DNA of 57,513 nt from Candidatus Methylomirabilis tolerans (GTDB lineage Bacteria > Methylomirabilota > Methylomirabilia > Methylomirabilales > Methylomirabilaceae): contig JAIOIU010000034.1 in NCBI GenBank assembly GCA_019912425.1, positions 1 through 57,513 on the forward strand, read 5' to 3'. Both the position numbers and the translations under genes were made by a program. Positions 21,378 to 24,533 of this stretch are shown here, piece by piece (within the stretch, counting starts at the first letter, position 1; each line of letters opens with the position of its first letter). A model generated the notes under the pieces. That model ran no database searches. It was not told the origin of the DNA and was given only the letters and a program-made list of their open reading frames with translations.

Positions 21378-22770
21378 CGGCCTCATCTCCTTCGGTCGGG
21401 CTGGTTTTCGCGAGCGCGCGGTGCGTGGCCAGGACCTTCTTGCGGATCTCTTCGTCTCGGAGATCTGGAAGGGCCTGATCCACGAACCCGGCGAGCGTTC
21501 CGAGCGTCGGCCCCTCGGCGATCCAGACACGCCGGTCCCGCTGCTCGCGCAGCTTGGCAACGAACTCGCTCATCGGCGCCGGATCCACGATGACGAGGGT
21601 GAAGCTCGGAACGGCGAGAGCCTGCTGGATGATCGCGTTCACATGCTCGTCACCGAAGCCGTAACCGACCACGAACAGCACCGACTGGGGTCGAGAGAGG
21701 GCACCCGCAAATCTGCGGAACAACTCGGAGTACGGCATACCCAACGTCTCACCATACTTCGCCGGAGTCGGGTAAATCAGGAGCGGCTGCGTCCCAGCCG
21801 GATCGAAAGCCGCCGACTGCACGCCGTAGGGATCGTCGATCGTCGGCTCGTTCGCCGTCCACGTGATGGATCCATGCAGCTTGTAGAGGTGCAGGACCCG
21901 GTCGAACCGGTGGACGCGGCCCTCGGTTGTTTCCGCCGGGAAGTAGAGATCCTGCTCGTAGCTCTCGGGCCGGAAGACGCGGCGTTGGGTGCCGATGAAG
22001 CCTTCTAACAGAACGACGCCCTCGGCGTCCGACGCCTGCTCGACAAGCGTGTCGTAATTGAGCGTGAAGACGTTCACCCGCTTGAGATTGAGCGGGCGCG
22101 TCAGGAGCTTGCGGACGATGGTCTTGTAGGTTGCGAGGCCGGCTCGCCTGTCATCCGTCGGAAGGTCGCAAGCGCGCGCCAAGGCGCGCGTCGCATGCTT
22201 GAGAGCAGCATCGAGGTCATCTGCCTTGGCGTCCAGGAGTGGAGAGCCGTCCATGCGCAGCCGGCCGCCCGTTTCAGGCAAGGCCGAGCGCCAACGCTGC
22301 AGTGTCGCCAGCACTCGCTCAAAGTTGGCCCGGATCGGTTCGACCCCCTCGCCGTTAAGCGCCTCCCGACGAGCGAGGATCGCTTCGTGAGTCACGGGGA
22401 TCCTGTCGCCGCCGCCCGAGTACCGCAGAGCCAGATAAAAGACCGACAGCCACCGCCGAATCCGCAGTCGTGTTGTTCCCGTGATGCCTTCGTTGTGCAA
22501 GTCCCGCTCGACCACCAGAGGAACGGAACCGATCAGTTGTCCGCCGCAATCGACCGAGGCGCCTGCGCCGAGGAGGAAGGACACCGTCTCCGTCTTGAGC
22601 AGAGTCCCGACGCGAACACGGATGTCGTTGAGCGCCTCACGTTGCCGGCGCCCGGCCGCTGATTCTTGCGTGTCAGAACCAGCCGCGACCGACTCGGTCT
22701 CAATCGGCGACAGAAGCTCCTCACCTCCGATAGCGAAGTGATCCTCTGGGGTGAAGTTCGCGTCATTCAT
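21367..22770 (-). CDS. SIR2-like NADase/deacylase-fold protein of a SIR2-HerA pair
   Basis: The protein has 467 residues. The Rossmann-type SIR2 core shows FLLGAGASVDCGG (about 64-76, NAD-binding GAG-S), VFTLNYDTLVEQ (the TxNYD motif) and LYKLHGSITW with the catalytic-position histidine. FVVGYGFGDEHVN follows late in the domain. The N-terminal about 45 residues are acidic and probably disordered. Its start overlaps the hsdS stop (ATGA) and its end overlaps herA, so expression is coupled on both sides. The known role of such pairs is abortive NAD+ depletion on phage infection; activity here is inferred. Confidence 0.87.
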   Translation of the reverse strand: MNDANFTPEDHFAIGGEELLSPIETESVAAGSDTQESAAGRRQREALNDIRVRVGTLLKTETVSFLLGAGASVDCGGQLIGSVPLVVERDLHNEGITGTTRLRIRRWLSVFYLALRYSGGGDRIPVTHEAILARREALNGEGVEPIRANFERVLATLQRWRSALPETGGRLRMDGSPLLDAKADDLDAALKHATRALARACDLPTDDRRAGLATYKTIVRKLLTRPLNLKRVNVFTLNYDTLVEQASDAEGVVLLEGFIGTQRRVFRPESYEQDLYFPAETTEGRVHRFDRVLHLYKLHGSITWTANEPTIDDPYGVQSAAFDPAGTQPLLIYPTPAKYGETLGMPYSELFRRFAGALSRPQSVLFVVGYGFGDEHVNAIIQQALAVPSFTLVIVDPAPMSEFVAKLREQRDRRVWIAEGPTLGTLAGFVDQALPDLRDEEIRKKVLATHRALAKTSPTEGDEADGD

Positions 22771-24533
22771 GCCTGCACCCCGCTTGCTTCGCCCAAGGCG
22801 CTCGTCGCAAAGTGTTTCGCATCCCGCACCCGCAGTTCGCCGGAGATGAGCTTGGGCAGGAGCGCGTCGCGCAGAGCGGCGAGGATGCGGGATTCGACGC
22901 AGCGCCGACTCATCTGCGCGACGATCGGAGCTAACGCCTTATTCGATGCGTCAAGGACCCTGTGAGGAGGAACGACAACCTTCGCATCCGAGAGGTGATG
23001 GCGCTGGATATGCCCCATCGTCGTCGCCTTTCCGGCGGCAATATGCTGGAAGGCCGGCAAGTGCTCGTGGATCCAAAGGTAATAGAACCACTTCGGGAAC
23101 TCGGTCGATGTCACCTTGAATAGGTGCTGGTTCAGTGCCCCCTTGCCCCCAGCCCACATTACGCACTCAAGCGAGCCAGACCACGAGAAGAGAACGTCGC
23201 CGTCGTCCACGACGTATTCTGGATTGAGGTCGGCGCTTGCGCGGTCAGCACCATGGACATTCCCTGCGCGCAGTTGAGCGATCTTGATGACCGGCAGCGA
23301 CCGGTTCCCTGTTGGCGGGCACTTCTGCAAGGCCAAGCCGTTCAGAAAGCGGGCAATCTCGTCGAGCCCTCGCACCTCCCACCCCTTTGGAATCTCCCCC
23401 AACTCCGACTCCTCAAACGAATCCGGGAAGAGGTCGACGATCTCCTTCGGCAGGCCGCACAACCCCTCGCCCGCTGGGAGAGGAGTTTGGGGTGAGGGCG
23501 ACACGCGCTCCGTTACCGTCCGATAAATCTGCTCCAGCACAGCTTCCGTTTCATTCAATACCTCGTTGTTCCAGAACCGCAGGACAGTGATGCCCCGTTC
23601 CGAAAGGGCGGCATCCCGCTGCCGGTCGCGCTCGCGACCGGTTGGTTCGCCGTGCTGTCCCCCATCCAGCTCGATCGCCAGCTTGAGTTCATAGCAATAG
23701 AAATCGAGCACGTAGGGCGGCACCGGATGTTGACGCCGGAACTTTGCCCCGGCAATTCTCCGATCCCGCAGCATCCGCCACATCAGGTGCTCCGCGTTCG
23801 TCTGGTTGTTGCGCAAAGCGCGGGCGAAATCGCGTAGCTCGGTTGGGGGGTAGGCATGGCTGGAGCAGTGATGGCCCTCGCCCCCGGCCCTGCCCTCACC
23901 CCCGGCCCCTCTCCCGGAGGTAGAGGGGTGATTCATTTTGGCGCGGACGGGGTCGAAGTCCACGAACCACGACTTGAAGAGCGCACGCGCCATCGCTTCC
24001 AGCATCTCGTTCATCCGCCGGTTCAGCTCGATCTTGTCGTCCAGTGTGCCGAGGATGTGAGCGATGGCGCGTTGCTCAGGGAGTGGAGCCGTCGGGATCG
24101 GAAGCGATTCGAGCAACGGAATGCGAAGATTGCTAACCGTAGACCCAGTTCCTTCGTTAACGCCAATCTCGTGCTGAACTTCGCTGGATTGGAGCGCATA
24201 GAGAAGGTACCGAGGTTCGACCCGTCCGCAATTCGGCCGCAGTAGCACCATGCGTTGGCCGAGGCAGCACCGGAGATTCGACGGGATCATGCACACCTCG
24301 CCCATCGGCGCTTCTCGCGTTATGACGAGGTCACCCGCTATCGGTGAGGCGCGCCGCGTGCGCTCGATGTAGTGTTCCTCGTCAGTGAAGCTCGGCTCAG
24401 ACAGATCAAGGCGACCAGCCCGAATGTTTTGATTGCGGAGGACGATGACTCCGCGATCCGTCCAGGCTGGCGTCGAGTGCGGGCAGTCGACAATCGCATC
24501 GCACAGATCGGCCAGTGGCGTCTTAGCTGCCAT
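22767..24533 (-). CDS. hsdS: Type I specificity subunit HsdS carrying an inserted DUF559 nuclease domain
   Basis: The protein has 588 residues from the ATG at 24533 (GGAG upstream), against the usual about 400-450. The first target-recognition domain (about 1-150) is followed by the conserved helix (LPEQRAIAHILGTLDDKIELN ending KSWFVDFDPVRAK). The second domain starts FPDSFEESELGEIPKGW, and the ending is ALLPKLISGELRVRDA. Between them, residues about 200-358 are foreign. A Gly/Pro-rich repeat peptide leads in, then comes a DUF559 domain (LRDFARALRNNQTNAEHLMW; FRRQHPVPPYVLDFYCYELK; AIELDGGQH; RFWNNEVL), then a second repeat peptide. The whole reads in one frame. HsdS normally sets sequence specificity for HsdM and HsdR; whether the chimera still assembles is unknown. 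Confidence 0.9.
   Translation of the reverse strand: MAAKTPLADLCDAIVDCPHSTPAWTDRGVIVLRNQNIRAGRLDLSEPSFTDEEHYIERTRRASPIAGDLVITREAPMGEVCMIPSNLRCCLGQRMVLLRPNCGRVEPRYLLYALQSSEVQHEIGVNEGTGSTVSNLRIPLLESLPIPTAPLPEQRAIAHILGTLDDKIELNRRMNEMLEAMARALFKSWFVDFDPVRAKMNHPSTSGRGAGGEGRAGGEGHHCSSHAYPPTELRDFARALRNNQTNAEHLMWRMLRDRRIAGAKFRRQHPVPPYVLDFYCYELKLAIELDGGQHGEPTGRERDRQRDAALSERGITVLRFWNNEVLNETEAVLEQIYRTVTERVSPSPQTPLPAGEGLCGLPKEIVDLFPDSFEESELGEIPKGWEVRGLDEIARFLNGLALQKCPPTGNRSLPVIKIAQLRAGNVHGADRASADLNPEYVVDDGDVLFSWSGSLECVMWAGGKGALNQHLFKVTSTEFPKWFYYLWIHEHLPAFQHIAAGKATTMGHIQRHHLSDAKVVVPPHRVLDASNKALAPIVAQMSRRCVESRILAALRDALLPKLISGELRVRDAKHFATSALGEASGVQA
23461..23930 (-). mobile_element. In-frame DUF559 (Vsr-like PD-(D/E)XK) insertion bounded by inverted palindromic repeats
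   Basis: The left boundary (23461-23501) reads CCTCGCCCGCTGGGAGAGG then AGTTTGGGGTGAGGGCG on the plus strand. The right boundary (23873-23930) carries the same unit in reverse orientation, with the GGTGAGGGC ends facing inward on both sides. The enclosed about 120 residues are a complete DUF559 domain with the D...E-D-GGQH active-site layout. DUF559 proteins belong to the very-short-patch-repair-like endonuclease superfamily. No separate promoter or ribosome site is seen, so it is expressed only as part of HsdS. Confidence 0.75.

Follow-up and report, generated by a model that had tools for sequence, protein, structure and literature searches.

A DUF559 nuclease domain between inverted triplex-type repeats, in frame inside a type I restriction specificity subunit: a candidate mobile element

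The BoxC/PIT/TM motif of Escherichia coli combines a hairpin with a mirror-image tail and forms a triplex in vitro (PMC4666352). Holder et al. (2015) counted 23 copies in E. coli K-12, described the motif as always intergenic with no mobility gene nearby, and cited earlier work in which it had no terminator activity (PMC4666352). The repeats described here share the hairpin, the mirror tail and the inverted pairing of that motif, but they flank a DUF559 nuclease gene and also lie inside reading frames. Palindromic repeats in frame within protein genes are likewise known as the Rickettsia palindromic elements (PMC10969869), which differ in sequence and host range and for which the portion of that source used here mentions no nuclease gene.

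The window is a 57,513-nt stretch of contig JAIOIU010000034.1 from Candidatus Methylomirabilis tolerans. Its type I specificity gene, hsdS, is interrupted as follows.

22767 to 24539, minus strand: hsdS, type I specificity subunit with an in-frame element inside (open reading frame, Pfam Methylase_S, PADLOC Specificity_I, alignment)
23457 to 23933, minus strand: inserted element, 477 nt, HsdS residues 203 to 361; approximate ends, from protein alignment
23465 to 23498, plus strand: terminal triplex-type repeat, tail pointing inward
23514 to 23837, minus strand: DUF559 nuclease domain, Vsr/EDxHD fold, catalytic-type residues present
23893 to 23928, minus strand: second terminal triplex-type repeat, inverted, tail pointing inward

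HsdS is 590 residues long and matches Methylase_S in Pfam, while PADLOC Specificity_I profiles match it on both sides of the insert. The sequence-only reading had proposed that a complete DUF559 domain lies in frame within the protein, and Pfam bears this out at residues 235 to 342 (128 bits, E 1.7e-37). The ends of the insert were set by alignment with three HsdS proteins from plasmid records, all uninterrupted, of which the best-aligning (Pseudomonas fragi) is 52.6% identical. The foreign block comprises 159 residues rather than about 158, and the reading frame spans 22767-24539, not 22767-24533. After the insert HsdS picks up at GLPKEIVDLFPDSFEESELGEIPKGW and nothing evident is lost in the alignment, in keeping with the earlier claim that nothing essential was missing. 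The inverted palindromic repeats reported around the insert are also real: 23462-23499 and 23892-23929 are 79% complementary across 38 nt, and on triplex scoring each terminal repeat is a hairpin with a mirror tail. The right-hand repeat has an extra partial tail (23874-23891). Within the insert Pfam finds only DUF559 and an overlapping nuclease model (MTES_1575). No protein-splicing domain was found there, as had been proposed, and an intein is therefore rejected; nor did Pfam find a DDE, serine or tyrosine transposase in the element. The HsdS-borne domain is the only DUF559 in the 2.65-Mb genome.

An intact reading frame with conserved nuclease residues might simply mean that DUF559 is a normal HsdS domain, lending the specificity subunit, for example, a cutting activity of its own, and DUF559 does occur within HsdM and HsdR genes elsewhere. 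We consider this very improbable and reject it. The aligned homologues lack the insert, none of 424 HsdS-matching plasmid records covers 80% of the interrupted protein, and the unrelated LeuRS, MetH and RecG genes have been invaded too. The sequence-only reading had singled out DUF559 in repeat-free HsdS proteins as a finding that would contradict it; related HsdS proteins without repeats have no DUF559.

The nuclease residues E16, D45, E56, D58, H62 and D71 are kept in the window and are nearly invariant across the family. A model of the domain (pLDDT 90) retrieves with Foldseek first 3HRL (NGO0050 of Neisseria gonorrhoeae, a structural match at 42% identity), followed by the homing endonuclease I-Bth0305I and by Vsr; by sequence and fold, I-Bth0305I is the closest characterised relative. 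Viral contigs yielded no relative of the domain, phage records two near-full matches among 50,697, and plasmid records 45 among 72,556. DUF559 is thus rare on phages and plasmids and mainly chromosomal.

Whether DUF559 genes are associated with such repeats elsewhere had been set beforehand as a test that could refute the proposal. Distinct DUF559 loci were drawn from Methylomirabilota, Alphaproteobacteria, Bacteroidota and others, and 100 had enough flanking sequence. Strong inverted flanks were found at 69 of the 100, as against 1 of 249 other ORFs (0.4%) and 0 of 374 random windows from the same loci (p about 3e-47), so the association is well supported. Sampling took the highest-scoring loci, and remote DUF559 members may show a lower rate; in Bacteroidota it is only 44-48%. 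Inverted flanks were absent from nine genes for Vsr, a related fold (0/9), and, by eye, from terminal DUF559 domains of large helicase-like proteins. The triplex motif itself is present on both flanks in 45/101 loci (controls 0/95) and on either flank in 77/101 (controls 2/95). Its tails mostly point inward, and mostly outward in the in-gene copies of Bacteroidota. Two DUF559 genomes carry 60 and 133 repeats per Mb; 400 kb from three genomes without DUF559 contained no repeats, as did 100-kb samples from three of four further DUF559-bearing alphaproteobacteria.

GC-rich palindromes that form hairpins often occur close to the ends of genes, and flanks like these could in principle arise by chance or be no more than the usual terminator hairpins of small genes where a genome is rich in GC. 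The same-locus control rate of only 0.4%, the covariation of arms and tails described below and the copies found within open reading frames allow this explanation to be dismissed for practical purposes, as does the lack of terminator activity in the earlier work cited in PMC4666352.

By their layout, the repeats flanking DUF559 are the known BoxC/PIT/TM intrastrand-triplex motif. The sequence varies by lineage (CCCTCTCCC, CCCTCCCC or CCCCCTTT types) and the layout is constant: a hairpin, a short loop and a tail mirroring the purine arm, which should allow one strand to form an intrastrand triplex on its own. In hairpins picked without looking at their tails, the tail fits its own arm better than the arms of other loci at 109 of 140 flanks (p 7e-14). 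The best partner of a left end is its own right end in 36 of 101 loci, where about one is expected by chance. Repeat similarity also follows DUF559 identity (Mantel r 0.50, reached by no permutation; 0.44 between taxonomic groups). Taken group by group, the correlation is strong for Methylomirabilota and weak for Alphaproteobacteria, and Bacteroidota show none.

The other subunits of the same restriction system are interrupted as well, by insertions the sequence-only reading had missed, two in hsdM and two in hsdR.

12265 to 15594, minus strand: hsdR-like ORF of 1109 residues, open through two repeat insertions
14204 to 14305, no strand assigned: repeat cluster, in frame within hsdR
15412 to 15489, no strand assigned: repeat cluster, in frame near the hsdR 5' end
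25450 to 27234, minus strand: hsdM, methylase subunit of the same type I system (Pfam)
25703 to 25759, no strand assigned: lone repeat with a partial second tail, in frame near the hsdM 3' end
26618 to 26737, no strand assigned: repeat cluster without DUF559, in frame within hsdM, an insertion of non-autonomous type

The hsdR-like ORF was assigned by eye, from its likeness to other HsdR translations. All three subunits, HsdS, HsdM and HsdR, are thus affected and every frame is still open; stop codons are absent from most reading frames of the island repeats, which would explain why many in-gene insertions survive. The sequence GGTGAGGGC occurs 12 times in the window against 0.7 in shuffles. 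The strict repeat pattern has nine copies genome-wide, eight of them in the island, which suggests that the island was probably imported already carrying its repeats and that there is no ongoing spread of the family in this genome. A copy of another repeat type, common in a genus relative, lies at 5481-5517.

The restriction genes stand in a wider defence island, with a HerA-type ATPase, a SIR2_2 protein and a HATPase protein beside them (16965-22770) and a HepT-like/nucleotidyltransferase pair at 24799-25453. A second copy of the hsdS 3' end (22831-22898), 82% identical, lies between the HATPase and HerA genes (19013-19080) and resembles the remnant of another hsdS. A 74-nt stretch occurs three times near island gene starts (15524-15597, 16892-16965 and 19085-19158; 65-77% identical). 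A separate CCCTATACCCT-like repeat family is scattered through the window (231-252, 31288-31332, 44286-44380 and 51977-52549).

Insertion of DUF559 elements into protein genes is not peculiar to HsdS. In-frame elements occupy two sites in LeuRS genes, and the sites are reciprocal, each species group providing the empty site for the other group's insertion. Further in-frame hosts are MetH, RecG, HsdM, HsdR and methylase genes, and DUF559 is fused N-terminally to a PP-loop (TilS-like) protein and to RnpA. The LeuRS, MetH and RecG hosts give good support to the proposal that a nuclease gene rides in a palindromic-repeat element which can enter a frame and leave it open. Copies within one genome delimit the unit: similarity spans repeat to repeat in one pair (L208/L210) and nearly so in another (L345/L346). 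A third pair (L351/L352) was considered as a transposition and rejected, since it looks like two copies of one region. One shortened element (L279) is a deletion derivative that retains remnants of the DUF559 3' end. Clean empty sites at the DNA level are rare, and no target-site duplication was found at the sites inspected. Distant lineages carry DUF559 elements at the same positions, in some cases with repeats of different types: fadB-thiolase (L005, L009), folD-xseA (L037, L040, L044, L053) and the same place in HsdM (L042, L127). This may reflect shared descent or target preference.

Of 34 genomes of the genus Herbaspirillum, all 9 with a full DUF559 and none of the 25 without it carry the full repeat, a co-occurrence partly expected because each DUF559 gene brings two repeat copies. 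Two of the 9 have extra, dispersed repeat pairs, as against none of the 25 (p 0.06). Across species the gap between fadB and thiolase holds a full element, one tail-less hairpin or nothing, and six genomes without DUF559 have solo hairpins there. The copy between uppP and recQ is accompanied by the loss of most of a neighbouring gene and was rejected as a clean insertion, a deletion having been found instead. One Herbaspirillum genome contains three two-repeat mini-elements (L282, L286 and L290); their inner and outer flanks are shared, so what disperses there extends beyond the repeats.

These data bear on the main rival, which is homing into pre-existing repeats: the repeats would spread by other means, DUF559 would cut copies of them, and the gene would be copied in by homologous repair and hence come to lie between repeats. 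The kinship with I-Bth0305I, the solo hairpins at fadB-thiolase in the six gene-free genomes and the reuse of sites in distant lineages (fadB-thiolase, folD-xseA, HsdM, LeuRS) all speak for it. Yet the full repeat is missing from all 25 Herbaspirillum genomes without DUF559, the solo hairpins are tail-less, which fits deletion between two palindromic cores rather than precursors, and the two ends of an element match each other within a locus and vary along with the nuclease. We regard homing as unlikely, although less so than the other alternatives.

Herbaspirillum DUF559 is under strong constraint (dN/dS 0.09) and evolves largely with its host; at the fadB site it diverges with fadB (r 0.80), so it moves seldom. 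Such purifying selection and vertical inheritance, together with the Vsr-like fold and the rarity of DUF559 on phages and plasmids, would also suit a host repair or structure nuclease that eliminates or controls DNA in triplex or hairpin form, its gene lying between its own substrates for regulation or as the fossil of an element. This would leave unexplained the in-frame insertions in LeuRS, MetH, RecG and HsdS, the repeat-bounded copies within genomes and the higher repeat number where the gene is present, and we think it distinctly unlikely.

The E. coli protein YcjD is a DUF559 protein. Triplex-type repeats adjoin ycjD, and the copy beside it fits the published BoxC/PIT/TM motif. The gene is present in about 3,350 of 5,426 E. 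coli genomes. In 59 genomes spread down the ranking, repeat matches number 16-32 (median 23) with ycjD and 2-19 (median 5) without it, a difference (p 3e-10) that is confounded by phylogroup and that mirrors the RAYT-REPIN pattern reported in PMC8049555. A clean empty site for ycjD was rejected in three ycjD-negative genomes, in which unrelated efflux genes occupy the place. The gap between gudD and barA has undergone wholesale replacement, not clean insertion; by strain, it holds a triplex-repeat pair or classical REP-like sequence (L420-L424).

We propose that the HsdS insert represents one autonomous copy of a mobile element consisting of a triplex-type repeat, a DUF559 nuclease and an inverted triplex-type repeat, and give this a probability of roughly 0.7. 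The reading that best fits the whole is a mobile system resembling REPIN/RAYT, with a nuclease of the Vsr/EDxHD fold in place of the Y1 transposase. Its basis is what is observed in the genomes, namely the architecture, its recurrence across phyla, in-frame insertion, covariation, repeat-bounded copies, a deletion derivative and co-occurrence within a genus, and from these we infer that DUF559 is the mover of the repeats. That role, already suggested by the sequence-only reading, has indirect support from covariation, copy boundaries, the deletion derivative and the joint occurrence of gene and repeat in Herbaspirillum and E. coli; the confinement of eight of nine strict copies to the island counts against it. 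In the proposed mechanism DUF559 would recognise the folded repeats, probably on transiently single-stranded DNA, and cut at or near their outer ends, which would allow low-rate copying of the full element, and of shorter derivatives with two repeats, to new places. The enzyme gene itself would evolve slowly and mainly vertically, serving a population of non-autonomous repeats as RAYT serves REPINs. The odds seem about even that this represents a new class of mobile element, in which DUF559 moves triplex-ended DNA in cis and in trans in many phyla, which explains the origin of BoxC/PIT/TM, including that of E. coli through YcjD, and which adds repeat-coded linkers and whole domains to unbroken proteins.

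Since mirror-image triplex repeats flank DUF559 genes across many bacteria, E. coli included, DUF559 is a good first candidate for the spreader of a family of repeats whose origin has gone without an explanation since the 1990s. A specific, widespread and structurally solved nuclease family thereby acquires a testable role, with E. coli K-12 ycjD as the model. If the proposal is true, the system would be transposition-like with a nuclease class and a DNA end structure new among the literature searched, and would open to experiment the way in which proteins, essential ones included, acquire insertions in frame.

Several known systems resemble parts of this arrangement. The gonococcal structure 3HRL (NGO0050) belongs to the same domain family, and its entry title says only 'endonuclease-like', with no function assigned. 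Compared with a classical insertion sequence, the DUF559 element has no DDE, serine or tyrosine transposase and no target-site duplication was seen at the inspected sites. The EDxHD homing endonucleases (I-Bth0305I, PDB 3R3P) share the fold, the catalytic pattern and the location of the gene within other genes; the DUF559 element differs in having no intron or intein and no known unique target, and in being flanked by dispersed repeats. REPIN/RAYT (PMC8049555) is alike in pairing an enzyme gene with inverted palindromic repeats and non-autonomous inverted pairs, in the mostly vertical, slow evolution of the enzyme and in the larger number of repeats in enzyme-bearing genomes. RAYT, however, is a Y1 HUH tyrosine transposase whereas DUF559 has the Vsr/EDxHD nuclease fold, and the DUF559-associated repeats are of triplex type with other sequences. 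With DUF559 as its enzyme instead of a Y1 HUH transposase, the system is not a member of REPIN/RAYT and is similar in organisation only. A link between DUF559 or ycjD and the repeats was not found in the literature searched, which is not the whole literature. Each component, from the repeats and the nuclease fold to the REPIN/RAYT layout, was known before, and within the literature searched the new part is the connection of DUF559 to the repeats.
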